Shown piece by piece: positions 3,361-18,757 of a DNA stretch of 64,000 bases; the stretch's first letter is position 1, and every line of letters starts with the position of its first letter. A program made the position numbers and the translations under genes. The notes below the pieces were generated by a model that was given only the letters and a program-made list of their open reading frames with translations, made no database searches and was not told the origin of the DNA. Origin of the DNA: Hungatella sp. (lineage in GTDB: Bacteria > Bacillota > Clostridia > Lachnospirales > Lachnospiraceae); assembly GCA_022792815.1 (NCBI GenBank), contig JAAWBS010000037.1, positions 50,127 through 114,126 on the forward strand. The letters run 5' to 3'.

Positions 3361-4815
3361 TTATTTGCACAATTTCTTAAACTCGTCAGCCACAAACTGC
3401 ACCTGAGTTCCCACGATAACCTGCACGGAATTCTTGCCTGGACGGATGACGCCGGCCACGCCTGCGGACTTGATCTTCTTCTCGTCCACGCCCGTGTAAT
3501 CCTTGATCTCCAGACGGAGTCTGGTGATACAGTTGTCGATGGAGGTGACGTTGGCAGCTCCGCCTACGCCTTCCAGGATGATCCTGGCAACCTCGGTAAA
3601 GTCGTTGTTGGCCAGAACAACCTGAGTCTCGTCGTCGTCGTCCTCACGGCCGGGAGTCTTTAAGTTGAACTTGGTGATCACAATCCGGAACACCAGATAA
3701 TAGACAACGCCTACCACCACGCCGATGGGGATCAGGAACCAGGGGTTCTGAGCCAGCGGAGTGAAGGAGCTGAGCACCATATCCACGGCGCCGCCGGAGA
3801 AGGAGAAGCCTGCACGGATGGGAAGAGCCACGGTGATGCCTGCGGTAATACCGGCCAGCAGAGCGTGTACCACGTACAGTCCGGGAGCCAGGAACATAAA
3901 TGCGAACTCAATGGGCTCTGTAACGCCTGTGAAGAAGGAACAGAAGGCTGCGGAAAACAGAAGGCCGTAAGCCATTTTCTTCTTCTCGGGTTTTGCGGTC
4001 TGATACATAGCCAGACACGCCGCCGGGAGACCGAACATCATGAACGGGAAGAAGCCCGTCATGTACATACCGGTCTGACCGAAGACGCCGGTGTTGCCCC
4101 AGAAGTTGCCCAGGTCATTGATGCCCGCCACGTCAAACCAGAATACGGAGTTCAGTGCGTGGTGCAGTCCGAAAGGAATCAGCAGACGGTTAAAGAACGC
4201 GTAGATTCCTGCGCCCAGAGCGCCCATGCCGATAAACGCCTTGCCCATGGCCACCAGTGCACCGTACACGATGGGCCATACGATAAACAGAACCAGGGAA
4301 GCCACGATGGAATACAGGGCCGTAAAGATGGCCACCGCTCTCTTGCCGCTGAAAAACGCCAGGGCGTCCGGAAGCCTTACGCCTTTGTACTTGTTATAGC
4401 AGGTAGCGCCGATGAGACCGGAGATGATACCCACAAACTGGTTCACGATCTTGCCGAAAGCCGGGTCTGCCTCTTTGCCTGTGATACCTGCAACCGTGCC
4501 GCTGCTGAGAAGGGTGGTGATCATGTACATGGACACCAGACCGGCCAGTGCAGCCGCGCCGTCGTTGTCATCTGCCATGCCCACGGCCACTCCGATGGCA
4601 AACAGCCATGACATATTGTCAATCAGCGCTCCGCCTGCCTTGATGAGGAACAGACCTGCAGAATACAAAAATCCTCCTGCCGTAAAGCCCTGAACCTCGC
4701 CTGCCATGGCAGCCGGCGCCAGTATGTATCCGATACCCATGAGAATACCGCAAATGGGCAGACACGCTACGGGAAGCATCAACGACTTACCAAGTTTCTG
4801 AAAATACTTCATCAT
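3361..4815 (-). CDS. nagE: PTS EIICB, N-acetylglucosamine/glucose type
   Basis: This 484-residue membrane permease imports and phosphorylates an amino sugar or glucose. Residues 1-370 form the multi-span EIIC domain, with the NagE-like stretch LLIPFGLHHALNSVFWFDV. After an acidic linker the EIIB domain follows, with the phosphorylated cysteine in IDNCITRLRL. No EIIA is fused; that domain is encoded separately at 5151-5666. The start at 4815 has AAAGGAG upstream; a second ATG follows at once. It is last of the antiterminator-EIIA-HPr-EIICB operon. GlcNAc is my preferred substrate because of the EIIC sequence and the glycosaminoglycan locus elsewhere in the window. Confidence 0.88.
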   Translation of the reverse strand: MMKYFQKLGKSLMLPVACLPICGILMGIGYILAPAAMAGEVQGFTAGGFLYSAGLFLIKAGGALIDNMSWLFAIGVAVGMADDNDGAAALAGLVSMYMITTLLSSGTVAGITGKEADPAFGKIVNQFVGIISGLIGATCYNKYKGVRLPDALAFFSGKRAVAIFTALYSIVASLVLFIVWPIVYGALVAMGKAFIGMGALGAGIYAFFNRLLIPFGLHHALNSVFWFDVAGINDLGNFWGNTGVFGQTGMYMTGFFPFMMFGLPAACLAMYQTAKPEKKKMAYGLLFSAAFCSFFTGVTEPIEFAFMFLAPGLYVVHALLAGITAGITVALPIRAGFSFSGGAVDMVLSSFTPLAQNPWFLIPIGVVVGVVYYLVFRIVITKFNLKTPGREDDDDETQVVLANNDFTEVARIILEGVGGAANVTSIDNCITRLRLEIKDYTGVDEKKIKSAGVAGVIRPGKNSVQVIVGTQVQFVADEFKKLCK

Positions 4816-4880
4816 AATAAAAACTCCTTTCCTGCGGCCATAGGACCGCCTGCTTGGTTTATTTAAATCCCGGTCGGGAT

Positions 4881-5141
4881 CTAAATCATAGTGCCGTTCA
4901 AAGCTTTTTCAATCTCCTCCGAAATCTCCTGCTCCCGCGCTCCCTCTGCTGTTATGATAATCTCGTCGCCATATCGGGCTCCGAGAGACATGATTTCCAG
5001 AATGTTTCCCCCATCTGCAGTCTCTCCCCGATATTCCAGCGTCACTGAAGTCTCACTGTCTCTGCATGCCATGACTACCTTTGCGGAATTCCTGGCATGA
5101 ATTCCCTCCAAATCCTTTAGTACAAAGATCCTCCTGACCAT
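4881..5141 (-). CDS. HPr-family phosphocarrier lacking Ser46
   Basis: The 86-residue protein aligns along its whole length with HPr. It keeps the phosphorylatable histidine and arginine (GIHAR, about residues 13-17), but the usual following proline is Asn. At the regulatory Ser46 position the usual KSIMGVMSLG reads GNILEIMSLG, so serine is replaced by Asn. HPr passes phosphate from EI to EIIA. Without Ser46 it should not be a target of HPr kinase or a CcpA co-repressor. It lies 9 bases after the EIIA stop and 65 bases before EIICB, so it may be dedicated to this PTS. Confidence 0.85.
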   Translation of the reverse strand: MVRRIFVLKDLEGIHARNSAKVVMACRDSETSVTLEYRGETADGGNILEIMSLGARYGDEIIITAEGAREQEISEEIEKALNGTMI

Positions 5142-5150
5142 AAAACCTGC

Positions 5151-5666
5151 CTATAACTCAATGATCGGATCCAACGCCTTCACTTCCATGCCGCTGTGGC
5201 ACACCATATTGGGGAAGGAAGGAGTATTGCAGATGATCACCGGGGTGGTCACATCGTACCCCGCCGCCTTCACCTGCTCCAAATCCACTTCCACCAGCGT
5301 ATCTCCCGCCTTCACCGCGTCCCCCTGGGCCACACAGGCCCGGAAGTACCGGCCTTTTAGATTTACCGTGTCCAGCCCGATGTGGACGATCAGCTCCGCA
5401 CCGGAGTCCGTCTTTAAACTGACTGCGTGGCCGGTCTCAAACATGACCGCCACCGTACCTGCCGCCGGAGCCACGATGGTCCCGGACGTGGGGACGATGG
5501 CCACCCCTTTGCCCAGAATCTCCTGGCTGAAGGTAGGGTCCGCCACCTCGCTCATGGGGATGGCCTTTCCCGACACAGGCGCCAGAATCACCTTCTTCTC
5601 CTCCTGCCCGCCAAACAGCTTCTTCAGTGAACCAAACAAGTAAACCGCCTCTCTTTCTCTACACAT
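5151..5666 (-). CDS. PTS EIIA, glucose (Crr) family
   Basis: This cytosolic phosphocarrier passes phosphate from HPr to EIIB. The single domain carries the active histidine in LIVHIGLDTV and the Crr-type start VSGKAIPMSEVADPTFS. The ATG at 5666 overlaps the upstream stop by 8 bases but has poor spacing to its ribosome site. A TTG at 5639, just before FGSLKKLFGG and preceded by GAGAGGCGG, is an equally likely start, giving 162 residues. It sits between the antiterminator and HPr genes and probably serves the EIICB at 3361-4815. Confidence 0.9.
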   Translation of the reverse strand: MCREREAVYLFGSLKKLFGGQEEKKVILAPVSGKAIPMSEVADPTFSQEILGKGVAIVPTSGTIVAPAAGTVAVMFETGHAVSLKTDSGAELIVHIGLDTVNLKGRYFRACVAQGDAVKAGDTLVEVDLEQVKAAGYDVTTPVIICNTPSFPNMVCHSGMEVKALDPIIEL

Positions 5667-6486
5667 GCACCCTCTTGATGTGCACGGCTAAATATGACAC
5701 TTCCTCATCAGTTACATAATGCTCATACTTCTCCCGGATATAATCCCGGATCTTTAAACTGCACTTATATTCCTCCGGGTACATCCCGGCGATCATGCGG
5801 GAGAACTCCAGGTTCTCTCCGTTAAGCAGCTCCCTGCAGTAGATCCGCTCTGCCAGAAATCTCAGATGGGTGATCAGCCGCTCATAGCTCAGAGAAGTCT
5901 CATCCAATTCGATCTGAAAATACTCTCTGATGATCCCCATGACCTCCTGAATCAGGTTGGTAATGTCTATGGTGTCCCTCATCTTGATATTATATTCCGC
6001 ATTGACGATGTGAAGGGCTATGGAAGCCGCCTCATCCGCCGGAAAATGAATCCCAAGCTTTCTCTCGATCAGGGCTATGGCGTATTCGCCCACCAGGTAT
6101 TCCTCTTTGTAAAAATTCTTCACTTCCCGAATCAGCGGGTTGGTAAACATCATATTGTTCTGATACCGCTCGATGGAGAAATTAATGTGGTCCGTCAGGG
6201 TCAGATAGATGCTGTGGTTCAGCTTTCGGTTGAGCACATTCTTCGCATAGTCAATGATCTCCGCGGAGATCTGCAGGTGCTCCAGCGGCATCTGAGCCAG
6301 AAGGTTCCGGAACTTGGTGACGGTTCCCGGGTTGTCCAGGCGGAAGATCTTCTCCACCTTCTCCTCCGGGATCTCCATCCCCTTTTTCATGTGGTAACCG
6401 ACCCCTCTTCCCATGATCACCACCTCGGCTCCCTCCGGATCCATGGCGCTCACCACATTGTTGTTGATGACCTTATCGACTTTCAT
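5659..6486 (-). CDS. BglG/LicT-family transcriptional antiterminator
   Basis: The 275-residue protein has an N-terminal RNA-binding (CAT) domain (about 1-55, KVINNNVVSAMDPEGAEVVI). Two PTS regulation domains follow, with histidines in EHLQIS/LNHSIYLTLTDH (PRD1) and ITHLRFLAERI/HIKRVHV (PRD2). The family binds a ribonucleic antiterminator hairpin and prevents termination when sugar flux dephosphorylates it. Such a target and an overlapping terminator lie directly upstream (6508-6585), so the gene controls itself and the PTS genes after it. It is the first gene of the operon. Confidence 0.93.
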   Translation of the reverse strand: MKVDKVINNNVVSAMDPEGAEVVIMGRGVGYHMKKGMEIPEEKVEKIFRLDNPGTVTKFRNLLAQMPLEHLQISAEIIDYAKNVLNRKLNHSIYLTLTDHINFSIERYQNNMMFTNPLIREVKNFYKEEYLVGEYAIALIERKLGIHFPADEAASIALHIVNAEYNIKMRDTIDITNLIQEVMGIIREYFQIELDETSLSYERLITHLRFLAERIYCRELLNGENLEFSRMIAGMYPEEYKCSLKIRDYIREKYEHYVTDEEVSYLAVHIKRVHV

Positions 6487-6756: not shown

Positions 6757-6785
6757 GAAAAAAGCCATAGATTTTACTCTATGAC
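6757..6785 (-). terminator. Terminator of the DUF4038-isomerase operon
   Basis: The minus strand reads GTCATAGA, a short loop, TCTATGGC and then TTTTTTC, about 12 bases past the stop of the DUF4038 gene. It is a standard rho-independent terminator that ends the operon running from 14100. Confidence 0.8.
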
Positions 6786-6796
6786 TTTCTCCCCAT

Positions 6797-8071
6797 CTAC
6801 ACCCTTTTCCCTATGATCAGCACGTCCTCCTCCAGATTGTGCATCTTGACAAAGCTTTTCCCATCATGAAAGTCCACATCCGGGTAGAGAACCTTTCTCT
6901 CCGCCAGATCGATCACGATAAACCGGTACCCGCTGTAATCTCCCCGAAGCCTTACAGTGGTGTTGGAAGGCACATAGATGAGCACAAAGGAATCATCCTC
7001 CGACCTGGCCACCCGGATTTCCTCGGTCCCGTTTTCACAGACATCGATAATGGGAATCAGATGATCCCACTGATAAGTCTCAAACAGGTATTTCAGATAT
7101 CCGTAATCCCAAGCTCCCGGAAACTTTACCGCATCCTCCCAAGGCATAGGCGCATCAAACCCCTCTCCCAGAAGACTTCCAAAAGCCTTTCCTGCCTTGT
7201 GCCAACTCCACACCCCGTGAGCCCCATAGGTGATGCCTGCACAGGCTCCGGACAGGATACTGAGCCAAGCCGCACGCCGGATATCTCTCCTCGAGAACCG
7301 TCCGTACATCCGGCGGCTGAATCCCATCTGTTCATAACAAGGTTCACTGTTGATCACAGGCTTTTTTGGATATTCATCATAATACCTCCGAGCCAGAAGA
7401 TAGGGCATAGCCGGATTTTGGGCATTGTGTCCCGACTGATACATGTAAAAGTCCATCTGATCCAGGAACACCTCCGGGATTTCCTCCAATCGTCCCTTGA
7501 TGTGAAGAGTCTTTAGGGTATCCGGACTAAGCTGACAGATCCTGTCCATCACCTTCTTGTAGTAGGCGATGCTTCGGTCCGTATCAAAATCCGTATCCCC
7601 GCTGATGATATAGACGGGCTTAAACTCGTCAAACGTCTCGTACTGCTTATCCACCAGCTCCTCGAGGAAATCGTACTCCATCACATTGCAGTCCTTCAGC
7701 CTGCTGGCCCAGGTGTCCGGCACATAGTTGCTCCACAAAAGCACTAAGGCCAGCTCAAATCCTTTCTCCGCCGCCATGCGGCACATCACCTTTGCCCGGT
7801 CAAAATACTCCTGATTCCAGGTGCTGAACCGAAACACCTGATTGTCCTCGGTAGGAAACGGATACAGATTCAGATCCGACCCGGACCTGTCCCACTGAGG
7901 CAGAGTATTGATCTGAAGCACGTTGAATCCCTGGTACTTCCTCTGAGTCAGATAATACTCCCACTCCTCCAAGGACACATTGGTAAAGGCACTCCAGACG
8001 GTATCTGCCAGATAAAAAAACGGTTTTTTATCCCTCTCAAAGCTTCTTTTGTTTTTGCTGACCGTAATCAT
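6797..8071 (-). CDS. DUF4038 apiosidase-like glycoside hydrolase, cytoplasmic
   Basis: The 424-residue protein belongs to the DUF4038 group (GH140 apiosidase-like TIM barrel). It begins with FFYLADTVWSAFTNVSLEEW, the usual N-terminal barrel signature. Candidate catalytic acids are the Asp in ISGDTDFD (about 150) and the Glu in INSEPCYEQM (about 246), with the typical HGVWSWH further on. There is no signal peptide, so it should act inside the cell, and the C-terminal part is a small beta domain. It is the last gene of a sugar operon with an isomerase, kinase, split transketolase and PTS EIIC. Release of a branched pentose such as apiose is an inference from the family and context. Confidence 0.8.
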   Translation of the reverse strand: MITVSKNKRSFERDKKPFFYLADTVWSAFTNVSLEEWEYYLTQRKYQGFNVLQINTLPQWDRSGSDLNLYPFPTEDNQVFRFSTWNQEYFDRAKVMCRMAAEKGFELALVLLWSNYVPDTWASRLKDCNVMEYDFLEELVDKQYETFDEFKPVYIISGDTDFDTDRSIAYYKKVMDRICQLSPDTLKTLHIKGRLEEIPEVFLDQMDFYMYQSGHNAQNPAMPYLLARRYYDEYPKKPVINSEPCYEQMGFSRRMYGRFSRRDIRRAAWLSILSGACAGITYGAHGVWSWHKAGKAFGSLLGEGFDAPMPWEDAVKFPGAWDYGYLKYLFETYQWDHLIPIIDVCENGTEEIRVARSEDDSFVLIYVPSNTTVRLRGDYSGYRFIVIDLAERKVLYPDVDFHDGKSFVKMHNLEEDVLIIGKRV

Positions 8072-8093
8072 AAGAAACTCCTCTCCTCAAAAC

Positions 8094-9353
8094 TCAGTCT
8101 TCCTGCCCCTGCTGCTCTTCTTTCAATGCCATGGCATCCGCTTTCTTCAGAAACGGCAGATATATGGCACACCCGATGACCACCAGCACGATCTGCAAAA
8201 GGGCAGCTCTCCATCCCCCGGCGATAAACCCACTGGCCACCACCGGCATGCCGAAAGGCACCTGAACACCGCTTAATTTGGGCACCAGGCCGATCGCCAT
8301 AGCGCCGTAAGCCACAGCCACCTGAACCAGCGGCACGGTGATGAAGGGGACTGCCATCAGGGGATTCAGCACCATAGGCATACCGAAGACCACCGGCTCG
8401 TTGATGGTAAAGCAGCCCGGAACCAGAGATAACTTTCCGATGGCTTTGTGCTTCTCGGCCTTGCAGAAGAATACTAAAAGGATGCATAAGGACAGGGTTC
8501 CTCCCGCTCCTCCGATGCCGGCAAACAGGCTGTAAAAGGTCTTTCCTAAGATATTGGGCAGCTGAGAGTTGGGGATTCCGGCCGCCACCGCCTCCATCTG
8601 AATGGTGTCAAGAGGCAGATACAGGGCATTGATAAAGGCCGAGATCACCAGAGAACCGTGGATCCCGAAGAACCACAAAAACATCTGGAACAGCACCAAA
8701 ATCAGCAGAGAGAACACATTGTTGCTGAGGCTCTGTAAGGGAGCTGCCAGGATCGCATAGATCATTTCCGCAAAAGACCCCCATGGAGTGAAGGAAAACA
8801 CGACAGCCACGGCCACAAAGACACAGCCTGCCATAATGGCCGGAAACAGGCTGGAAAATGTGGTGGCAACCACAGGAGGAACACTCTCCGGCATCTTGAT
8901 GGTAAATCCCTTCTGCTTAAACAGAACATAGAGCCTAGTGGCAGCCAGGGAAACGATCATACCGGTGAAAAGACCTTTGGCTCCCAGCCATCCGATATCC
9001 AGATAACTGGCCCCCTCCACATTGGCCATGGGGGTCACGATAAGGAAAGCAAACAGGGAAATCAGTCCTGCCGGAAGGCCTCCCTCGTGAAACTCGTCGG
9101 CCAGGCGGTAGGCAATCATAAATACAGCATACAGTGTCATACAGCTGGTTGTCAATGTAGAAGTCGCCATCAGATAGGGACGAACTCCCGTGTTGCTTAA
9201 AATATCTTTCCAGCCCGGAATTGGAAGCACTGCCACCAGAAGGGCCAGAGACCCGATCATCAGGATGGGCAGAAGAGCCATGAGTCCGTTGGATATGGAT
9301 TTCAAATACTTGTTTCCCTGAACTGCTAATGCGATTTCCTGAACCTTTTCCAT
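8094..9353 (-). CDS. PTS EIIC, lactose/cellobiose (CelB) family, orphan
   Basis: This 419-residue integral membrane protein has about ten hydrophobic segments and the CelB-type features INEPVVFGMPMVLNPLMAVP and FGIHGSLV. EIIC transports a sugar while EIIB phosphorylates it, but no EIIA or EIIB gene is nearby. It must borrow these from elsewhere in the genome or act as a plain transporter. GGAGG precedes the ATG. It lies 23 bases after the kinase gene and 22 before the DUF4038 gene, so it is part of the operon. A glycoside or disaccharide that the cytoplasmic DUF4038 protein cleaves is the likely cargo. Confidence 0.9.
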   Translation of the reverse strand: MEKVQEIALAVQGNKYLKSISNGLMALLPILMIGSLALLVAVLPIPGWKDILSNTGVRPYLMATSTLTTSCMTLYAVFMIAYRLADEFHEGGLPAGLISLFAFLIVTPMANVEGASYLDIGWLGAKGLFTGMIVSLAATRLYVLFKQKGFTIKMPESVPPVVATTFSSLFPAIMAGCVFVAVAVVFSFTPWGSFAEMIYAILAAPLQSLSNNVFSLLILVLFQMFLWFFGIHGSLVISAFINALYLPLDTIQMEAVAAGIPNSQLPNILGKTFYSLFAGIGGAGGTLSLCILLVFFCKAEKHKAIGKLSLVPGCFTINEPVVFGMPMVLNPLMAVPFITVPLVQVAVAYGAMAIGLVPKLSGVQVPFGMPVVASGFIAGGWRAALLQIVLVVIGCAIYLPFLKKADAMALKEEQQGQED

Positions 9354-9376
9354 AAATTAACCTCCATTTCTGGTAT

Positions 9377-10888
9377 CTAATGTTGTCTGACCGTTTTTCC
9401 TCCGGCCAGTGTTATCGCTACGGCTTCCTTCCAGCCCCGATACCGGTCCTCCATGTCCCCTCGGCTGGCTTTTGGCTGGAAACAGGAAGCCCTGTGCCCA
9501 TTAAAAATCTCATTCTTGTCATAGATTCCGGCCCGGATTCCCGCCATATAAGCGGCGCCGATGCCGGACAATTCCTCTGACTCAGGGACTTTGACCGGGA
9601 TTCCCAGCACATCACTCTGAAACTGCATAAGATATTCGTTTTTCGTCGGCCCTCCATCCACCCAGAGCTCTCTCTGCCGGATTTGGGATGCCCTCTCCAT
9701 GGTAACGACCAGGTCCGTGATCTGGTAGGCGATACAGTCCAGAGCCGCCTTGACGATTTCCGCTTTTCCCGTAGTCCGGCTCATGCCCAGGAGAGAGGCG
9801 CGGGCCTCTGTATCCCAGTAGGGAGCCCCTAGACCCGTAAAGGCAGGCACCAGATAGGTCCGGTCCTCCATGTTTGCATCTCCGGCCAAAAACTCTGTCT
9901 CCCACGGAGAAGAGATCAGCCCCAAGCTGTCTTTCAGCCATGTGATCACCGCACCCGTATAGTTGATGTTGCCTTCCAGCACATAGACTACATGGCTGTC
10001 CACGGACCAGCCCAGAGACGTGACCACATCCGGCGACATCACCGGGGCGTCCCCGATGTTCATCATCACTGAAGAGCCGGTGCCGTAGGTAGCCTTGATC
10101 ATGCCCTTCTCATGACACCCGTGTCCGAACAGGGCCCCTTGAGAATCCCCCAGAACCCCGAAAATCGGAACCGGATTTTCGAAAAACCCGTCAAAATCCG
10201 TCTCGCCGAAAAATCCGTTGGAGTCTGTCACCTCCGGAAGACACTGAGGCGGAATCCGAAATCTGCGGCACAATTCCTCATCCCACTCCAAAGTCAGAAT
10301 GTTGAACAGCTGAGTTCGGGAAGCGTTGGAGTAATCTGTCCGAAACTCCTTTCCCCCTGTAAGCCGGTACACCAGCCAGGAATCTATGGTGCCGCAGCAC
10401 AGACCGCCCTGCCAGGCCTTCTCTTTCGCTCCCGGCACATGCTCCAGGATCCAGGACCATTTGGCGGCTGAAAAATAGGGGGACAGCTTTAAACCGGTCC
10501 GTTTTTTTACCATCTCCGATGCCCCGTTCTCCGCCAAGCGCCTGCAGATCTCGGCTCCTCTGGCACACTGCCACACCACCGCGTTGCACACCGGCTCCCC
10601 GGTAGCCCGATCCCAGGCTGCGGCGGTCTCCCTCTGGTTGCTGATTCCCACCGCCCTCACCAGCGAGGGGTCGATCCCCGCCTTTTGGACCACATCCCGT
10701 ACAGCCTGGATCGCATTATAATAAATCTCCATCAGATTGTGTTCCACCCAGCCCTTGTCATTGACGATCTGAACGTGAGAAAGGTCGGATCTGGCAAGGA
10801 TTTTTCCGCTTCCATCAAAGATCAGAGCCTTGGTCCCCTGAGTACTCTGATCGATTCCCAGTATGTAGGAATCCTTTGGGTGTCTCAT
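9377..10888 (-). CDS. FGGY carbohydrate kinase, glycerol kinase-like
   Basis: The 503-residue protein matches glycerol kinase in length and order of motifs: ATP-binding start LGIDQSTQGTKA, NQRET, VVWQC, PAFTGLGAPYWD and LWVDGG. Several residues around the substrate differ from GlpK. The usual DQGTTSSR start is DQSTQGTK, and the catalytic GDQQ is GDSQ, so the Gln after the catalytic Asp is Ser. The Arg-Glu, Trp and Tyr ligands are kept. No glp genes are near; instead it sits with an isomerase and a split transketolase. I infer a ketose kinase, for example an apulose kinase, rather than a true glycerol kinase, but cannot prove it. Confidence 0.8.
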   Translation of the reverse strand: MRHPKDSYILGIDQSTQGTKALIFDGSGKILARSDLSHVQIVNDKGWVEHNLMEIYYNAIQAVRDVVQKAGIDPSLVRAVGISNQRETAAAWDRATGEPVCNAVVWQCARGAEICRRLAENGASEMVKKRTGLKLSPYFSAAKWSWILEHVPGAKEKAWQGGLCCGTIDSWLVYRLTGGKEFRTDYSNASRTQLFNILTLEWDEELCRRFRIPPQCLPEVTDSNGFFGETDFDGFFENPVPIFGVLGDSQGALFGHGCHEKGMIKATYGTGSSVMMNIGDAPVMSPDVVTSLGWSVDSHVVYVLEGNINYTGAVITWLKDSLGLISSPWETEFLAGDANMEDRTYLVPAFTGLGAPYWDTEARASLLGMSRTTGKAEIVKAALDCIAYQITDLVVTMERASQIRQRELWVDGGPTKNEYLMQFQSDVLGIPVKVPESEELSGIGAAYMAGIRAGIYDKNEIFNGHRASCFQPKASRGDMEDRYRGWKEAVAITLAGGKTVRQH

Positions 10889-10932
10889 GGTTTTTCGCCT
10901 CCTTTCCGGCTTTTCCGAGCAGTTATGTCACC

Positions 10933-11871
10933 TCAGCTTCTTCTCAGAAGGGTCTCCATCTGTCCGGCTATTCCTGCGGCGTTCAGTCCATAATAGTCGA
11001 AGATCTCCCTGGAAGTTCCTGAAATCACCGGCTCATCGGGAAGAGACATATTTACCATCGGTCTGGGACAGTTTGCCCCCAATACCTGGGCCACCATAGA
11101 GCCAAGCCCGCCGAAGGGGGAATGCTCTTCTGCCGTTACCACTGCCCTGGCATTTTGGGCCGCTCTGATAATCGCTTCCTGGTCAAGGGGTTTTAGACAG
11201 TACATGTCGAGAACGGTTACGGATATCTGTCTTGCCGCCAGAATCTGTGCCGCCTCAAGAGTCGGTTTTACCATCTCCCCGCAGGCGATAAGCACCCCAT
11301 CTGTACCCTCTCTCAAAACCGCAGCCCTGTTCATAACAAAAGGACAGTCGGATTCCTCATAGATATCTTCCACCGGGTTTCTCCCCACACGCACATAGGC
11401 CGGCTTTTCGTCCTGTAACAGCGCCTCTATCAGTTTCCTTGTCTGGTGACGGTCGCTGGGCAGGTACACCCGCATGTTAGGGATGGCGGACATGGCGGCG
11501 ATGTCCTGAGCGGAGTGATGGCTCATACCCAGAGCTCCGTAGCTGACACCGCCTGAGATTCCGATCAGGGTCACATTGGTGTCAGAGTAGGCCACGTCCA
11601 CCTTGCACTGTTCATAGCTTCTGGTGGTGAGGAAACAGGCTGGGGAGGCGGCAAAAGGCTTCTTGCCGCATTTTGCCAGTCCCGCAGAGATCCCTACCAG
11701 ATTCTGCTCTGCGATTCCCACCTCCACAAACCTGTCCGGGAAGACCTGGGCAAAATAGGTCATGGACGCAGAGCCTCTGGAGTCACAGCACAGCACCACA
11801 ATGTCTTTGTCCTGGGCTGCCTTTTCCATCAACACTTCACAGATAGCCTGGCGGTTAGGTATTTGATTCAT
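10933..11871 (-). CDS. Transketolase, C-terminal subunit
   Basis: The 312-residue protein holds the pyrimidine-binding and C-terminal domains of transketolase, with FVEVGIAEQNLVGISAGLA (including the catalytic Glu), SYGALGMSHHS and the late VVTAEEHSPFGGLGS. Together with the N-terminal subunit upstream it forms one thiamine diphosphate enzyme. The frame is open to 11898, but GGAGG sits 9 bases before the ATG at 11871, which starts MNQIPNRQAI; it overlaps the upstream gene by 17 bases. Split transketolases are common in clostridial catabolic operons, and one such pair acts on apulose 4-phosphate. Confidence 0.92.
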   Translation of the reverse strand: MNQIPNRQAICEVLMEKAAQDKDIVVLCCDSRGSASMTYFAQVFPDRFVEVGIAEQNLVGISAGLAKCGKKPFAASPACFLTTRSYEQCKVDVAYSDTNVTLIGISGGVSYGALGMSHHSAQDIAAMSAIPNMRVYLPSDRHQTRKLIEALLQDEKPAYVRVGRNPVEDIYEESDCPFVMNRAAVLREGTDGVLIACGEMVKPTLEAAQILAARQISVTVLDMYCLKPLDQEAIIRAAQNARAVVTAEEHSPFGGLGSMVAQVLGANCPRPMVNMSLPDEPVISGTSREIFDYYGLNAAGIAGQMETLLRRS

Positions 11872-12697
11872 GACAGCACGCCTCCTTTTCTCTTGCAAAA
11901 TCTGAGATAATCTGCTGATATTCTTCCGCCGTGGGCACTCTGTGGTGCCAGCCGGCCTGGTTCTCCATCACGGGAGAACCGCAGCCTTTCACCGTGTAGG
12001 CGATGATAACACTGGGCTGTCCCTTTGTCCTTCCCGCCTCCTCAAATGCCCTGTGAAGCTGATCCATATCATTTCCGTCGGGCACGGAGATCACATGCCA
12101 GCCGAAGCTTGCCCACCGCTCTTCTTGACTGTCCTGAGACATGACTTCCTCTGTAGAGCCGGAGATCTGGAGGCGGTTTCGATCCACCACGGCGCAGAGG
12201 TTGTCCAACTTATAGTGGCCGGCGGCCATGGCTCCCTCCCACACAGAGCCTTCCGCCAATTCTCCGTCTCCCATAACCGTGTAGACTCTTGAGGTCCGGC
12301 GGTCCATCCTGGCCGCCAGGGCCATGCCTGTACACACCGAAAGCCCATGTCCTAAGGAGCCGGAATTCATCTCGATCCCAGGCAGTTTATTGTTGGGGTG
12401 GCCTATGTATCTGGTGCCGAACTTGGAAAAACCGGCCTTCACCTCTTCCAAATCCAGAAAGCCTTTTGATGCCAGAACCGCGTAGAGAGCTTCCACCGCA
12501 TGGCCCTTGCTGAGGACAAACAGGTCCCGGTTGGGGTCTTCTAAATTGTCCAAAGAGATGTTCATCTCCCTATAGTACAAGGTAATCAGGATGTCTATGA
12601 CGCTCATGTCGCCGCCAATATGGCCTGCCTTCCCTTCCATGATGATATCAACCACATCTTTTCGCAGATCGTAAGACAATGCTTTTAAGTTCTCCAT
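11855..12697 (-). CDS. Transketolase, N-terminal (TPP-binding) subunit
   Basis: The 280-residue protein is the thiamine-diphosphate domain, with GKAGHIGGDMS, the NSGSLGHGLS turn and the metal/TPP motif GDGELAEGSVWEGAMAA ending near VVDRNRLQ. An ATG at 12703 overlaps the isomerase stop, but the AGAGGAGA ribosome site touches it, so the ATG at 12697 (6 bases spacing) is the better start. It forms the enzyme with the next gene and moves a two-carbon ketol unit. The context suggests a dedicated catabolic substrate rather than the pentose phosphate pathway. Confidence 0.92.
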   Translation of the reverse strand: MENLKALSYDLRKDVVDIIMEGKAGHIGGDMSVIDILITLYYREMNISLDNLEDPNRDLFVLSKGHAVEALYAVLASKGFLDLEEVKAGFSKFGTRYIGHPNNKLPGIEMNSGSLGHGLSVCTGMALAARMDRRTSRVYTVMGDGELAEGSVWEGAMAAGHYKLDNLCAVVDRNRLQISGSTEEVMSQDSQEERWASFGWHVISVPDGNDMDQLHRAFEEAGRTKGQPSVIIAYTVKGCGSPVMENQAGWHHRVPTAEEYQQIISDFAREKEACCHESNT

Positions 12698-12699
12698 AG

Positions 12700-14100
12700 T
12701 CATTCTCCTCTGATAAAGGCTTTTACCTCTTCTTCTATGGGATCGTAAAGATCCGGCCTGACCTGAATGTACTTGCAGGCCTCATAAAGGCTGGGAACCA
12801 GATCCATGTGAACTCCCACACAGTGATGAATGTAGGGACCGCATACCAGTTTGTCCTCCAGCCGCTTTAGATTCTCCACTTCCACCCACACATAGGTCCC
12901 CTTAGTGTAAGGTCCGTCGATGCCCCAGGCTCTCCCCAAAAGAAGGGAGTACTCACCGTTATCCCCGTCGAATCGGCACAGGGTCATCTGACCATGTTTT
13001 GCCTCTGCCTCCACGGCACCCGGATGATTGAATGCCAGAGGATAGCCGATGGAAGGCTTTTCCTTCGCCACGGAAACAGGCCACGGACCGCAGTGTTGAA
13101 GCAGCTCTCCGTTTTCACAGTCCGGGTGACGGACGGTCCAGTCGGCAAAGAAACTTCTGGCCTCTCCCATGGCCGCCGCCTCTGCCATAAGAGCCGTCAC
13201 CGCTCCATGGATATCGGTCTCACAGACCACAGGAATCCCCTCCTCGTTGAGAAGGGAGTTGGCGGCGCAGGGCATGATCCCGATCTCCGCCTGAAGAGCA
13301 TTCCAGCACTGGATGGCGACAGCACGGCATCCATACCTATCTGCAAGATGTTTCATGGCCACCTTCAGGGCCGCCACCTGGTGAAGCTCCTCCGGCTTGA
13401 TGCAGACGTTCATGGAACTGCGGCAGTAAACCATGACCTCCTCCACCTCTGTCCCCTCGGCCTTGGCCTTCTCCATCTCCTGCCTAAGCTCTGTCATAGG
13501 GATAGGCGCCAGCTGAATGTTGAACTTCTCAAGCAGCTCTCCCTCGTTGCACATGGTACTCCAGAAGTCAAAGGGCCTGGGTGCGATCTGGAGGATTCGG
13601 ATATCCCGGAACACCTTTACAATATTGCAGACTCTCAGGAAATTATCGATCCCCCTCTCAAATTCCGGGTCTGTCAGACGACAGTTGCACAGGTAGGTGA
13701 ATGGAACCTGAAATCTTCTCAACACCTTTCCCGTGGCAAAGAGACCGCACTGGCTGTCTCTGAGGCGGACACCGTTCTCGTCTGGTCTCTCGTCCCTGGG
13801 CCCCCACAAAAGCACCGGCACATTCAGCTCCTTGGCCAGCCTTGCGCAGACATACTCCGTGCCGAAATTGCAATGGGGAAGGAAAAGCCCGTGTATCTTT
13901 TCTCTTCTGAACTTCTCGGCCACAGCGCTGCGATCTCGGTCGTCATAGAGCAGTCCTTCTTCATTGATGTCATCCAGATCCACCAGCTCAACTCCCAACT
14001 CCTTTAGACGCTGCCTGGTCAGCCCCGCATATCTGACTGCATCTGGGGCACTGAATATGCTCCTTCTGGTAGGAGCATACCCAATCTTGATCCCATTCAT
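12700..14100 (-). CDS. L-fucose isomerase-like sugar isomerase
   Basis: The 466-residue protein has the fold pattern of the FucI/AraA-like family. An N-terminal Rossmann-like part comes first, and the metal-binding stretch follows: QAEIGIMPCAANSLL with Glu, CETDIHGAVTAL with Asp and His, and a late HHCVGVH. It is shorter than classic FucI (about 590), as in the many uncharacterised fucose isomerase-like proteins. It should convert an aldose to a ketose. It is the first gene of the operon, behind the promoter at 14154-14182, with AGGAGG before the ATG. The sugar is unknown; the downstream kinase, transketolase and apiosidase-like gene suggest a branched pentose. Confidence 0.85.
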   Translation of the reverse strand: MNGIKIGYAPTRRSIFSAPDAVRYAGLTRQRLKELGVELVDLDDINEEGLLYDDRDRSAVAEKFRREKIHGLFLPHCNFGTEYVCARLAKELNVPVLLWGPRDERPDENGVRLRDSQCGLFATGKVLRRFQVPFTYLCNCRLTDPEFERGIDNFLRVCNIVKVFRDIRILQIAPRPFDFWSTMCNEGELLEKFNIQLAPIPMTELRQEMEKAKAEGTEVEEVMVYCRSSMNVCIKPEELHQVAALKVAMKHLADRYGCRAVAIQCWNALQAEIGIMPCAANSLLNEEGIPVVCETDIHGAVTALMAEAAAMGEARSFFADWTVRHPDCENGELLQHCGPWPVSVAKEKPSIGYPLAFNHPGAVEAEAKHGQMTLCRFDGDNGEYSLLLGRAWGIDGPYTKGTYVWVEVENLKRLEDKLVCGPYIHHCVGVHMDLVPSLYEACKYIQVRPDLYDPIEEEVKAFIRGE

Positions 14101-14153: not shown

Positions 14154-14182
14154 ATTTTACTTAATATTAAGCAAGTTGTCAA
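14154..14182 (-). promoter_or_regulatory. Promoter with LacI-type operator in its spacer (isomerase operon)
   Basis: TTGACA (complement 14177-14182) and TAAAAT (complement 14154-14159) are exactly 17 bases apart on the minus strand. The spacer contains the perfect 12-base palindrome CTTAATATTAAG (14160-14171), where a bound repressor would block polymerase. A second palindrome AACTATAGTT lies at 14142-14151. Confidence 0.75.
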
Positions 14183-14332: not shown

Positions 14333-14436
14333 TAATTATTATTTAACTTTCTTGAATAGTATAAGTTTTGCGGGACTCAACCTTGACTTCCGCAATTATC
14401 TAGTGTTAATATCAAACATGAAAGGATTTGCCCCCT

Positions 14437-15441
14437 ATGTCCATATCCGCAAAAGAACTTGCCCGAAAACTCAACATCTCCGCCGCCACAGTCTCCATGG
14501 TCCTCAACCACAAACCGGGAATCAGCGAGGCCACCAGGCAGATGGTGTTGAACGCCGCCAAAGAGTACGGATACCAGTTTAAGAAAGCTTTAGAGGATCC
14601 GGACACACGCACCATACAGATCGTAATCTACCACAAAAACGGCCTGATTCTGTCAGACACTCCTTTTTTTAACCATGTGATCGAGGGTATCAGTTACCGG
14701 TGTCAGAGTCTGGGGTTCACCCTCCATATGTCTTATTTTTATGAGCGGGATTCTATGGAAGAACAGCTGGAACATCTGCGGGAGCTGGATGTAGACGGGA
14801 TTTTGCTTCTGGGAACTGAGATGGCAGAAGAAGATTTCGCTCCATTTACCACCTTGTCCATGCCTCTGGTGGTTTTGGACAGCTATTATGAAGGGATTCC
14901 TTTCGACAGTGTGGTGATCAACAATGTCCAGGGAGCTTTTGCCGGGACCTGCCATCTGGCCAAGCTGGGACACAAAAAAATTGGCTATCTTCGCTCCAGC
15001 TTTTCCATCCATAATTTTGAAGAGCGGGCTGAAGGGTACTTTAAGGCTCTCCGGGTCTTCGGCCTTGACACCTTCCACCCCTATGTATGCCGGATCTGTC
15101 CGGTTCCGGACAAGGGTTATGAGGATATGCTCCGCTATCTGGAAGAAGACCCCCTGCTTCCCACCGCCTATTTCGCCGACAACGATATCGTGGCCGGAGC
15201 TGCTATCCGTGCACTAAAGGTAAAAGGGTTCCGGATTCCTGAGGATGTGGCGGTCATAGGCTTTGACAATATCCCCTTCGGATCCCTCATGGAGCCGCCT
15301 CTCGCCACTATGGAAGTAGAGAAGCAGCAACTTGGGATTCTGGCCGTGGATACCTTAAACCGTCGGATCCAGAATCCCAACGGAGAGCTGGTGAAGGTGG
15401 CGCTGGGGACTAAGGTGATTCACCGGACAAGCGCCGGCTGA
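14437..15441 (+). CDS. LacI-family transcriptional regulator 1
   Basis: The 334-residue protein starts MSISAKELARKLNISAATVS, the LacI helix-turn-helix, followed by the hinge and a periplasmic-binding-like sugar domain with GILLLGTEMAEEDFAPF and the end motif VIGFDNIPFGSLMEPPL. A TTG at 14428 is in frame, but AAAGGA lies about 10 bases before the ATG at 14437. It diverges from the isomerase operon and should repress it. It is closely similar along its whole length to the regulator at 18941-19945, including the shared phrases SMVLNHKPG/SMALNHKPG and HNFEERAEG/HNFEERADG, so the two arose by duplication. Confidence 0.93.
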   Translation: MSISAKELARKLNISAATVSMVLNHKPGISEATRQMVLNAAKEYGYQFKKALEDPDTRTIQIVIYHKNGLILSDTPFFNHVIEGISYRCQSLGFTLHMSYFYERDSMEEQLEHLRELDVDGILLLGTEMAEEDFAPFTTLSMPLVVLDSYYEGIPFDSVVINNVQGAFAGTCHLAKLGHKKIGYLRSSFSIHNFEERAEGYFKALRVFGLDTFHPYVCRICPVPDKGYEDMLRYLEEDPLLPTAYFADNDIVAGAAIRALKVKGFRIPEDVAVIGFDNIPFGSLMEPPLATMEVEKQQLGILAVDTLNRRIQNPNGELVKVALGTKVIHRTSAG

Positions 15442-15647: not shown

Positions 15648-17267
15648 TCACTCCACCCACTCTGCCGCCAAAAGCCAGTCTCCGTCTCCCTTCTTTTCCG
15701 GCAGCCCTAAATTTCCGTCTTCCTTTGTCTCTTTCTCCCCTTCTTTTGTCTCCTCCCCGGTTCTGGGGTCAAACCACCACAGACGGTATCGTCCTGCCCT
15801 CATCCCCCCTGCCACTGCTCCTCTCCGGCAGGTGTCTCCATAGTAGACTGCCGCTCTGGTCCTCTCCTCATTGACCGTGATGAGAGGTGATTTCCTGGCA
15901 AACAAGGCCGTGTCCTCCTCCCCATAACCTGTGTAGGGGAGCATCTCCCAGAAATGAATCTTCTCATAAAACTTCTTCATGTATCCCATCTGCCTGCCGC
16001 CTACTCCGTCGATAGCCTCATACCAGGTAACATCAAAGCGGTTGAACAGAGCCATAGGATTCTTCTGACCTTTTTCCCACACACAGTCCCAGATCCCCTG
16101 GGCTCCGTATGTATAACCGCAGCCGCCCAGCTGGATACTCATATAGGCCACTCGCCTCAACATGTCCGCCGTACACAGACGGGTTCCCATCTCCTCAAGA
16201 GTGGAGCAGAATTCGTAGAGGGCCTCCCCCTCGATAAACGGCTTGTCCGGATATTTTTTCCTGAATTCCCGGTAGTGGGATGGGCTTATGGCATAATCCC
16301 CATGTCCTGCCTGATTCAGGGTAAAATCAAACCAGTCCTCCTGCTGATAATAATCGGCAAACGGCCTCTCATTGGTAGAATGAGCGGTCTTAAGGGTGCC
16401 GTAACCGTCGATGGAGGCGAGATAACGGGCCACGGACTGCCATCCTTTTAAATACTCCGAGCGGAGAGGTTCCCCGCTGTACCCGGCCACCTCCCCTGCC
16501 AGAGTCCACACCACCGGGAGGGCTCCATACCGGGCCACCATGTAGCGGGCTAAATTTTTCTGACGGTCCACCTGACCTTTGACAGACATAAACCAGGCAA
16601 ACCCAAGGGCATTGACCAAACCCAAGTCTGCCAGAGCCCTCATGCGGCGATCCAGCTCTTTCTGATAGAACTCGATGTTAGGCAGGTCTTTCCCGTTTTT
16701 TTGTCTCCAATAACGCTCCTCGCCGCCCATAGCCTGATCACTTCGCAGGTTGGTCTGATACACATTATAGCCCTGCTCTGCTCTCCTCCTCGCCATACCC
16801 AGAAACATGCTGTCCATATCCGGATGGTTGGACTGATCCCAGGACTCCCGCCAGGCAAATTCCCAGTGAGTATCTCCCAGCCAGAAAAAAGGGGTCCCAT
16901 CGTCATAGACCAGATACCTGCCTGACGGATGGACTCTCAAAAATCCGTGGCGGTAAATGTCCAGGTCACCTGTATAGGCTCTGCACTCCAGGGTGCCTGA
17001 CAGCCCGTCAAGCCCTGTGTCCTCAGGCGCCTTTAACACCCAAAGCCAGGTCCCCGTCTCCGTGGGAGCAAAAGCCACCTTGTAGGATCGCCCTCCGTCC
17101 CAATAGGCCTCCCGCAGGATCCTGCGGCCTGATGGGCCTGTAAAGACCGCCATAATCCGCACATCCAAAAAGGGGTTGTCATACTCCCGGCTGCTCTCAA
17201 ATTCCAGAATCTCCTGCCGCCACCGACAAACACTCCTCTCCTGTCTCATGATCTTGCCCCCATTCAT
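15648..17267 (-). CDS. DUF5060-DUF4038 glycoside hydrolase-like protein
   Basis: The 539-residue protein has an N-terminal DUF5060 beta domain (about 20-105). A DUF4038 apiosidase-like barrel follows (about 110-440, from YDDGTPFFWLGDTHWEFAWR), then a small C-terminal beta domain. Candidate catalytic residues are Glu in WTLAGEVAGYS and Glu in FIEGEALYEF. No signal peptide is visible, so it should be cytoplasmic. The ATG at 17267 overlaps the upstream stop (ATGA) and has AGGAGGGG upstream. It pairs with the alpha/beta hydrolase and is the second DUF4038 protein under a paralogous LacI regulator. Confidence 0.8.
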   Translation of the reverse strand: MNGGKIMRQERSVCRWRQEILEFESSREYDNPFLDVRIMAVFTGPSGRRILREAYWDGGRSYKVAFAPTETGTWLWVLKAPEDTGLDGLSGTLECRAYTGDLDIYRHGFLRVHPSGRYLVYDDGTPFFWLGDTHWEFAWRESWDQSNHPDMDSMFLGMARRRAEQGYNVYQTNLRSDQAMGGEERYWRQKNGKDLPNIEFYQKELDRRMRALADLGLVNALGFAWFMSVKGQVDRQKNLARYMVARYGALPVVWTLAGEVAGYSGEPLRSEYLKGWQSVARYLASIDGYGTLKTAHSTNERPFADYYQQEDWFDFTLNQAGHGDYAISPSHYREFRKKYPDKPFIEGEALYEFCSTLEEMGTRLCTADMLRRVAYMSIQLGGCGYTYGAQGIWDCVWEKGQKNPMALFNRFDVTWYEAIDGVGGRQMGYMKKFYEKIHFWEMLPYTGYGEEDTALFARKSPLITVNEERTRAAVYYGDTCRRGAVAGGMRAGRYRLWWFDPRTGEETKEGEKETKEDGNLGLPEKKGDGDWLLAAEWVE

Positions 17268-18757
17268 TGAAGTCCCCTCCTCTCTGCCAAGGAAACAGCC
17301 AGATGAATCAGCTCCTCCGCGTCTTCCCTACACAAAAATCCTTTGCTCACCTGCTCTTTTGTGTCCTCCGTCACCAGCCTCCGATAGTGGTCCAAGGTGC
17401 CGTAGAGCTCCCGCACCATGGCGGCAGAAAATCCCTCCTGATATCCGAAGAGTCCGTCTTGCTCTGACTCCGGATCCACAAAGCTTAAGCCCTTTTGGAT
17501 GCGGCTGGTACTGTGGTATCTGCCTGTGGGATAATTGAGAAGACAGGTGCGCAGGCCGCCTATGGTATTGCCGAACGCGTCCTTTCGGTTCTCCCCCTCG
17601 GCATTCGTAAGGATCCGCTCACAGTGTCCCGGCGCCGCCCCGGTTCGAACCCACCGAAACAGATTGCGGAAAGCAGCGGCAAACAGCAGATGGGAGGGAT
17701 AGTCATTGCCCTCCTCGTGCTCCCCCCTGTATGCGGGCAGATGGTTGATCCGCTCTAAATCCGGATCCTTTTCATAGTAATCCACATAACTATACATTGT
17801 GTCATGGCTGGCTCCTGTGACCTCGTAGAGCCGGTAGAGGAAATCCGGCCTGTCGCTGTCCTGACGCATAGTCCTCCAGCTTCCGAACCGCCCGTTCTCG
17901 CTTTCTGTCTGGACGGCAATAAACGGCTGGGATACCTTCTCCACCCGGTACAGCCTGTGACTGTAAGTCCTTCCCGTCTCATACTGATTTACCGGAGTCA
18001 CCACCCGTCTGACACCGCCTCCCGCCAAATACCCGTCAAAAACACAGCCGTCTCTGGCCACCTCCGGCCTGTAAGCAAAGCTGTTCACATACCGGAACAG
18101 ATAGCAGGCAGACTGAGACCAGCCGGTGAGATAAAGATACTCTCTCCTGTAATCCCTAAGAGGATTTTTCTTGTCGTCAGAGCGAAGCAGCCAGGCTAAG
18201 TCGGTCAGCATATCCCAAAAAAGCCCTGTCTCATAGCGGATGTCCAGATCAGGAAGGTTGCTGTTTCTCCGAATCGTCTCCTCCATATCAAAGGGAAAAG
18301 GGATGTCCCGGTTTGGATTGTTCCAGGACAGGATACCATATCGGGTCGGATCAAACTCTATCAGTTTCGGGATGGTGTTGGGCTTGCTGGTAATCCCCAC
18401 ATAGATATCCCCGTTCCGCATAAATTCCCGGTGGCCTAAGATCCACATGCGGTCAATCTCCATAAAGGAGGTAGGGTTGATGATTTCGACCACTATGTTG
18501 CCGCTGCACCTTTTCGGATCCGACGGTGCCCGGACGATAAAGCGGTTTATGTACGGGGCATCTTTGGTCATGACCTCCACTTGACCGGCATGGTCCTCGT
18601 CGTCAGCCCCTTCCCGTGTCCGGTAGACATGGGCGGTACCGTACATGTAGTATTCCTGTTCCTGATAACCTTTTTGGGAAAGGCGGCAGTATTTTTCTGC
18701 ACTGGCAAATGGGTAGCTTTCCGGTGTAATGGGAATCTCCTGAATCTTCTCTATCAT
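17264..18757 (-). CDS. Alpha/beta hydrolase domain protein (PF20091-like)
   Basis: The 497-residue protein resembles the large alpha/beta hydrolase family annotated as PF20091 (Abhydrolase_10). The nucleophile elbow is GWSQSACYLFRYVN (G-x-S-x-S, about 218), and the catalytic His probably lies near the C-terminal third. No signal peptide is seen. The ATG is preceded by AAAGGAGG and a promoter at 18798-18826. It is the first gene of a two-gene operon with the DUF5060-DUF4038 protein. A role as a carbohydrate or glycoside esterase is plausible; the substrate is unknown. Confidence 0.7.
   Translation of the reverse strand: MIEKIQEIPITPESYPFASAEKYCRLSQKGYQEQEYYMYGTAHVYRTREGADDEDHAGQVEVMTKDAPYINRFIVRAPSDPKRCSGNIVVEIINPTSFMEIDRMWILGHREFMRNGDIYVGITSKPNTIPKLIEFDPTRYGILSWNNPNRDIPFPFDMEETIRRNSNLPDLDIRYETGLFWDMLTDLAWLLRSDDKKNPLRDYRREYLYLTGWSQSACYLFRYVNSFAYRPEVARDGCVFDGYLAGGGVRRVVTPVNQYETGRTYSHRLYRVEKVSQPFIAVQTESENGRFGSWRTMRQDSDRPDFLYRLYEVTGASHDTMYSYVDYYEKDPDLERINHLPAYRGEHEEGNDYPSHLLFAAAFRNLFRWVRTGAAPGHCERILTNAEGENRKDAFGNTIGGLRTCLLNYPTGRYHSTSRIQKGLSFVDPESEQDGLFGYQEGFSAAMVRELYGTLDHYRRLVTEDTKEQVSKGFLCREDAEELIHLAVSLAERRGLQ

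Follow-up and report, generated by a model that had tools for sequence, protein, structure and literature searches.

A predicted operon for transketolase-type D-apiose catabolism in Hungatella and its relatives among the Firmicutes

A window of 64,000 nucleotides of Hungatella sp. DNA (assembly GCA_022792815.1, contig JAAWBS010000037.1, positions 50,127 to 114,126) contains, on the minus strand at positions 6797–14100, a six-gene operon that probably encodes D-apiose catabolism of the transketolase type. In this pathway apiose is isomerized to apulose, which is phosphorylated to apulose-4-phosphate; together with glyceraldehyde-3-phosphate the latter yields xylulose-5-phosphate and dihydroxyacetone phosphate. 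Five lines point toward D-apiose: two serines in the kinase, the clade and a motif of the transketolase, a natural swap of the isomerase in a related locus (L146), GH140-like glycosidases as neighbours, and a transporter of the ATP-binding cassette (ABC)/DUF2291 type. An apiose pathway had been proposed in a first-pass annotation of the DNA, and comparison along these lines with the apt clusters of Enterobacterales supports it at the level of sequence. The genes it had assigned to one operon (isomerase, split transketolase, FGGY kinase, a PTS enzyme IIC (EIIC), and a DUF4038 protein; PTS, phosphotransferase system) are all present and tightly spaced; the order it had given, isomerase–kinase–transketolase, has to be revised to isomerase, N-terminal transketolase half, C-terminal half, kinase, EIIC, glycosidase:

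12700–14100, minus strand: isomerase (ISO), 466 amino acids, predicted L-arabinose/L-fucose isomerase fold; putative D-apiose isomerase (aldose–ketose)
11855–12703, minus strand: TktA (PF00456), N-terminal, thiamine diphosphate-binding half of a split transketolase; putative apulose-4-phosphate transketolase subunit A
10933–11871, minus strand: TktB (PF02779/PF02780), C-terminal half of the split transketolase, with the motif YGxLxx[ST]HH
9377–10888, minus strand: FGGY kinase, GlpK-like with Q247S/F271S; predicted apulose kinase of the AplK type
8094–9353, minus strand: PTS EIIC of the lactose/cellobiose family (TIGR00410, 328 bits, cut-off 236); predicted importer of apiosyl glycosides
6797–8071, minus strand: GH140-like (DUF4038/PF13204) cytoplasmic glycosidase (PF13204, 289 bits, cut-off 26.5); predicted (phospho)apiosidase

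The genes for ISO and TktA share 4 bases (ATGA) and those for TktA and TktB share 17, while the remaining gaps measure 22–44 bases; such short overlaps and gaps fit a single operon. For TktB, the listed reading frame begins with TTG at 11898, but ATG at 11871, preceded by GGAGG, is the likelier start.

Scanning genome contigs with ISO gave 560 places encoding it, the best 80 of which (75–90% identity) were kept as the locus sample. ISO, TktA, TktB, and the kinase, here called the core, are all present in 71 of these 80 loci, a grouping beyond chance; in 68 of the 71 the three other genes lie on the same strand and no more than 7 kb downstream of ISO. Four loci without the full core (L005, L035, L073, L074) stop at a contig end. 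All six genes of the window recur in identical order in locus L002, from a metagenome-assembled Hungatella genome. A LacI-like gene is present somewhere in 65 of the 80 loci; in 46 it lies no more than 1.5 kb from ISO. The core is common, ISO being encoded (at least 71% identity) by 22 of the 150 genomes covered from the family to which the window belongs, and it is also found outside the Clostridia, in Listeria and Anaerovibrio; the original assignment to gut Clostridia is thus likely right, but too narrow.

Kinase residues were numbered by mapping to E. coli GlpK, whose glycerol pocket we take to consist of R84, E85, W104, Y136, D246, Q247, and F271, with Q247 and F271 lining the glycerol site. 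The window kinase keeps the first five and has serine at both 247 and 271, and so lacks the full GlpK pocket. All 73 core kinases have the pair Q247S/F271S, with the remaining pocket residues for the most part retained, and the same two serines are found in four of four AplK kinases of Enterobacterales, including AplK of E. coli SE15; growth on apiose is described for ST131 and STc14 carriers of the E. coli AplK cluster (PMC13001218). Among the rows of the kinase tree, serine occupies both positions in 23 of 23 window-type and AplK sequences and Q/F in 13 of 13 on the GlpK side; four rows match neither pattern (two of L147, L156, and one XylB-like). By score, the window kinase passes the GlpK subfamily model (578 bits, cut-off 498) and stays under the cut-off of the GlpK equivalog model (561 bits, cut-off 590), and AplK of E. 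coli SE15 is likewise GlpK-like (495 bits). When two distant outgroup kinases are included, the tree unites AplK with the core kinases in a single group of 23 (95/95). The genome of the window also encodes a canonical GlpK, 61% identical to that of E. coli and with Q247 and F271 kept. By its signature, and in the tree with outgroups, the window kinase is thus a predicted FGGY apulose kinase of the apiose transketolase pathway.

TktA of the window is 42% identical to AptA of E. coli. In an unrooted tree of joined TktA and TktB sequences, a branch with 100/98 support divides 24 rows (those of the core, AptAB from four Enterobacterales, L165, L170, and one pair of L147) from the 20 ordinary split transketolases; when three long rows and the columns of the motif are left out, the 18 ordinary rows that remain stand apart at 100/100, again unrooted. 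The motif YGxLxx[ST]HH occurs in 22 of the 24 rows on the apulose side (the exceptions being L146 and one L147 pair) and in all 73 core TktB proteins examined, the counterpart GEDGxx[ST]HQ in 17 of the 20 ordinary rows (exceptions L139, L166, and L183); this region presumably contains substrate-contacting residues of transketolases. Position on the AptAB side of the branch and the common motif argue for a split transketolase of the AptAB type, and the comparison with apulose enzymes proposed at the outset thus comes out in favour of both kinase and transketolase.

Some transketolases on that side of the tree lie in other surroundings. Steroid-17,20-desmolase DesAB cuts a ketol beside a tertiary alcohol, and cleavage of apulose-4-phosphate would follow the same chemistry. 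L165 (1277–3823) and L170 (846–3381) contain clusters of a short-chain dehydrogenase/reductase (SDR), TktA, and TktB, whose transketolase falls on the apulose-type side; they resemble the SDR variant of the E. coli apiose clusters, and their order matches that of the steroid desmolase operon desEAB (PMC12876203). As an idea only, DesAB may stem from an apulose-type transketolase clade. L147 (G239:C1:2722000-2741900) holds two split transketolase pairs, two SDR genes, and two GlpK-like kinases (Q247, I/V271), and is perhaps another polyol or branched-sugar pathway.

The isomerase sets the operon apart. ISO is predicted to adopt the fold of the L-fucose/L-arabinose isomerase superfamily over its whole chain, so that the label "FucI-like" holds for the fold; by sequence, ISO scores 22.1 bits to Fucose_iso_C (PF02952), below the curated cut-off of 29.3, which the Rahnella relative passes with 110 bits. 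The supposed contrast between a FucI-like enzyme and the described apiose isomerase does not stand in that form, as the isomerase beside aptAB in three apt clusters of Enterobacterales (Klebsiella, Rahnella, Sodalis) is annotated as a member of the fucose isomerase family; we infer that this gene is the published ApsI. ISO is 27% identical to it, belongs to a separate clade of the same superfamily and, judged by tree and identity, is not its ortholog; the window operon is therefore a variant that would work like the known pathway rather than a plain member. A PDB sequence search with ISO or its 38-row profile gave no match, and neither ApsI nor AptA occurs as a name among the 120 homologs listed in each of two listings, in which names are shortened and most rows are unnamed. 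L146, from the Clostridia, bridges the two types: its order is TktA, TktB, a window-type kinase, an isomerase of the Enterobacterales type (40% identity; support of 100/99 in the ISO tree), and a DUF5060/PF13204 glycosidase. As far as can be read from its genes, L146 is a natural isomerase swap, in which kinase and transketolase of the window type are joined to the isomerase type of the Enterobacterales apiose clusters.

The glycosidase of the window matches PDB entry 8T9W, "Apiosidase", at E 7e-29, and the Asp of its GD and the Glu of its EPxYE align with 3KZS and 8T9W; we take these two to be the catalytic residues, and 3KZS/5MSY to be BT1012. Domain and residues place it with GH140, and apioside cleavage is predicted. 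It shares the PF13204 catalytic domain with the GH140 apiosidases of known structure (3KZS/5MSY, 8T9W), but is distant from them (104 and 89 bits), PTS-linked, and cytoplasmic, as had been proposed: by eye, the protein begins at the catalytic domain and has no signal peptide. At 47% identity to a DUF4038 protein of Listeria, compared to about 25% to other PF13204 proteins, it likely represents a PTS-linked PF13204 subfamily. The EIIC has no IIA or IIB of its own in the operon; Lac-type IIA and IIB are encoded elsewhere in the genome.

GH140-like genes, defined as BLASTP matches to any of five reference proteins, occur in 25 of the 80 core loci, but in none of 12 loci of ISO paralogs (38–58% identity) and none of 11 GlpK loci (25/80 versus 0/23, Fisher p 8e-4); in 23 of the 25 the gene starts within 6 kb of ISO. 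Across the 150 genomes, PF13204 proteins are encoded in 21, namely in 13 of the 22 with ISO versus 8 of the 128 others (Fisher p 3e-8; 1.4e-7 when the genome of the window is excluded), and in 5 of the 22 the two genes are no more than 20 kb apart on one contig. Other neighbours among the 80 loci are GH78 α-rhamnosidase-like (11), GH127 (4), and GH3 proteins (3), and in 11 a nucleoside-hydrolase-like protein (PF01156; e.g., L026, 16249–17181), which could be a furanosidase.

A Rbs-type ABC transporter accompanied by DUF2291 is present in 14 of the 80 core loci. The proteins of L003 are related to those of the Rahnella apt cluster (binding protein 57%, RbsC 52%, RbsA 46% identity), and DUF2291 proteins of E. 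coli and of the core loci are 27% identical. The binding proteins of L003 and Rahnella have the same top match, PDB 5IBQ/4RY0 (RHE_PF00037 of Rhizobium etli), far above the next entry (372 versus 194 bits; 436 versus 183 bits), and Foldseek gives 60% identity of the binding protein to 4RY0. The title of 4RY0 names a ribose transporter component, and the one paper found that names 5IBQ makes no mention of apiose.

The closest known system is D-apiose degradation I of Pectobacterium and, partly, of E. coli ST131 (MetaCyc PWY-8089; ApsI, AplK, AptAB), with which the window shares an aldose–ketose isomerase, a GlpK-like kinase with S247/S271, and a split transketolase with YGxLxx[ST]HH; the ABC/DUF2291 transporter and GH140-like glycosidases of those clusters are matched in the 14 and 25 relatives just described. 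Identities to the Enterobacterales proteins are 39–40% for the kinase, 41–42% for TktA, and 37–41% for TktB. The differences are the isomerase, which belongs to a different clade within the FucI/AraI superfamily; a PTS and a cytoplasmic glycosidase instead of ABC uptake; and a LacI regulator instead of an annotated "sugar-binding transcriptional regulator". The apiose cluster of E. coli and Klebsiella with two SDR oxidoreductases has the same types of AplK and AptAB as the window but no isomerase, for which the two SDR genes are a proposed replacement (PMC13001218).

Several observations speak against the apiose assignment or weaken parts of it. To our knowledge, no enzyme of this clade has been assayed. 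The window kinase is overall more similar to GlpK (41.7%) than to AplK (39.5%), and when outgroups and signature columns are left out of the tree, AplK, core kinases, and GlpK part in a three-way split without resolution; it is therefore the signature that carries the kinase argument, and we do not claim that AplK and the core kinases descend from one ancestor, since the 95/95 support hinges on the outgroups. The second His of YGxLxx[ST]HH is missing from the TktB of L146. The transketolase-linked isomerase of L145 groups with a paralog that has no transketolase neighbour, and conversely a TktA-like reading frame lies near one of the 12 ISO paralogs (L102). Five loci (L046, L050, L064, L070, L081) have no transketolase, and a contig end does not account for this; L064 and L081 lack the kinase as well; all five contain a GH140-like gene. 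In 19 of the 25 loci the GH140-like genes are all of the DUF5060 type, whose representative scores 48 bits to PF13204, and in 6 a stronger type occurs; this weak match of most neighbouring glycosidases lowers our confidence slightly. EIIC and window-type glycosidase occur as a pair in one of the 80 loci, L002, so that recurrence lends the front end of the operon poor support, and the Listeria counterpart (see below) has a fused β-glucoside IIBCA rather than a Lac/Cel EIIC. That 5IBQ holds α-D-apiose is an assumption.

Of the other explanations, the one that fares best keeps the sugar but changes the order of the steps: the transketolase would cleave free apulose to xylulose-5-phosphate and dihydroxyacetone, and the GlpK-like enzyme would be a dihydroxyacetone kinase. 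The gene order (isomerase, transketolase, kinase) and the kinase's score to the GlpK subfamily would suit it, and sulfofructose transketolase, acting on an unphosphorylated ketose, is a precedent (PMC9594981). The replacements Q247S/F271S, however, are toward smaller residues, are common with AplK, and suit a substrate larger than a triose, which makes this scheme unlikely. A little less likely still is that the core acts on a different branched or furanosidic sugar from plants, such as hamamelose or a non-apiose sugar of rhamnogalacturonan-II, and that the link to apiosidase-like genes reflects co-metabolized pectin side chains. PF13204 is broad, most neighbouring glycosidases are of the low-scoring DUF5060/DUF5605 type, and GH78, GH127, and GH3 proteins are neighbours too; yet kinase and transketolase carry the signatures of the E. 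coli apiose cluster, and the isomerase swap of L146 and the common transporter indicate the same sugar.

Very improbable, finally, are two readings that current models and labels would suggest. The first is the sulfoquinovose transketolase pathway (sulfo-TK), in which, as in the window, an isomerase of the FucI superfamily (SqvD) is followed by a split transketolase (SqwGH), and to which the only NCBIfam match of ISO, the sulfoquinovose isomerase SftI model NF048012, belongs. That match amounts to 103 bits against a cut-off of 700 (which no protein in the 150 genomes reaches), so ISO does not classify as SftI/SqvD by this model, and SftI-like proteins fall on other branches of the ISO tree; a split transketolase was recognized in none of 7 SftI-like loci, hence no true SqwGH locus was compared. 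Sulfo-TK needs no kinase, no gene for SqwI, SqwF, or a sulfoquinovosidase lies within the operon, and the motif of its transketolase, RAFDR, differs from that of the window (PMC11659671); model score, absent genes, and motif together led to its rejection. The second, glycerol or fucose metabolism, draws on the GlpK similarity and on published labels for a Listeria operon (PMC3091722), and was rejected on the kinase residues, the glycerol pocket being altered in all 73 core kinases; moreover, the genome has its separate canonical GlpK, and glycerol requires neither isomerase nor dedicated transketolase.

If D-apiose is the substrate, the operon could work as follows. EIIC, with IIA and IIB from elsewhere, would import and phosphorylate an apiosyl-glucoside, from which the cytoplasmic GH140-like enzyme would release apiose; ISO would convert apiose to apulose, and the GlpK-like kinase apulose to apulose-4-phosphate. 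From apulose-4-phosphate the split transketolase would then transfer C1–C2 to glyceraldehyde-3-phosphate, which would yield xylulose-5-phosphate and dihydroxyacetone phosphate; apiose or a compound derived from it would be the signal for the LacI regulator. For the Firmicutes as a group we put forward, tentatively and with less confidence than the assignment of the operon itself, that apiose use is built on a fixed core of four genes, with an isomerase recruited apart from that of Enterobacterales, and on exchangeable front ends: free apiose taken up by ABC transporters, glycosidases for pectin or, in the window and Listeria, a PTS importing a phosphorylated apiosyl-glucoside for a cytoplasmic phospho-apiosidase.

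The Listeria counterpart, in L. monocytogenes NCTC7974 (L097, 5296–13086), comprises LacI, isomerase, TktA, TktB, a "glycerol kinase", a PTS β-glucoside IIBCA, and a DUF4038 protein in the gene order of the window; identities are 72% for the isomerase, 57% for TktA, 56% for TktB, 38% for the kinase, and 47% for the DUF4038 protein. Both serines (247 and 271) are present in the kinase, though it sits on a long branch. By gene descriptions and numbering the operon fits lmo1030-1036/lmo1031-1036; the lmo numbers are in part our own assignment. In the literature, lmo1031-1036 is called an operon responsible for glycerol metabolism, with lmo1031 possibly for fucose utilization, and described as hypothetical L-fucose isomerase, transketolase, etc. 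(PMC3091722); lmo1035-1036 is a target of the RNA RliI (PMC8079631), and a pan-genome paper counts lmo1031-1033 and lmo1036 among the genes missing in L. innocua (PMC2996996).

Apiose occurs in rhamnogalacturonan-II and many plant glycosides, and its use is a real niche. Where records name the core genes, they are called fucose isomerase, transketolase, and glycerol kinase. With the signatures of kinase and transketolase, such loci could be annotated correctly, and lmo1031-1036 would gain a testable substrate. The isomerase appears to be the exchangeable part of the pathway, replaced by another FucI-family clade or, in E. coli, by two SDRs, while the types of kinase and transketolase stay constant. 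Should PTS import and a cytoplasmic phospho-apiosidase prove true, no PTS-coupled apiose route would precede this one, the activity would be new to GH140, and the Listeria operon now called glycerol metabolism would be reassigned. In E. coli, apiose use has been tied to pandemic clones (PMC13001218). The titles, abstracts, and passages searched contained no assignment of apiose to Lachnospiraceae or Listeria loci; the same paper credits Carter 2018 with showing apiose degradation by gut Clostridia, and no priority is therefore claimed.

Further features lie next to the operon:

14428–15441, plus strand: divergent LacI-family regulator (PF00356/PF13377); by eye, ATG at 14437 is the likelier start
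14154–14182, minus strand: upstream of ISO, a promoter-like site (TTGACA-17-TAAAAT) that agrees with the consensus at 11 of 12 bases; a consensus match only
15648–17267, minus strand: second PF13204 protein (DUF5060, apiosidase-like domain, Collagen_bind_2), associated, outside the core operon
17264–18757, minus strand: Abhydrolase_10 (PF20091) protein, perhaps an esterase; its gene overlaps that of the second PF13204 protein by 4 bases

Promoter-like sites in the region number 10, as compared to a shuffle mean of 6.3 (sd 2.8). A terminator scan gave no terminator-like site at the operon end and 7 sites overall, not above shuffles (7.5); by eye only, a short A+T-rich inverted repeat lies near 6757–6785. 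Between LacI and ISO, operator palindromes of at least 7 pairs are absent from the window, L002, and five other loci, and two are present in L020.

The last two genes form a second operon beside the core (15648–18757, minus strand), with another LacI gene at 18941–19945 on the plus strand. In the Hungatella locus L002 the second PF13204 gene is kept as a neighbour (79–80% identity) and a 78% counterpart of the Abhydrolase_10 protein adjoins the core; relatives of the latter are also found near ISO in L047 (44%) and L073 (34%). On the other side of the core, a separate PTS operon (3361–6486, minus strand) encodes a LicT antiterminator, a Glc-type EIIA, and an EIIBC, and contains, by eye, an HPr-like stretch near 4880–5140.

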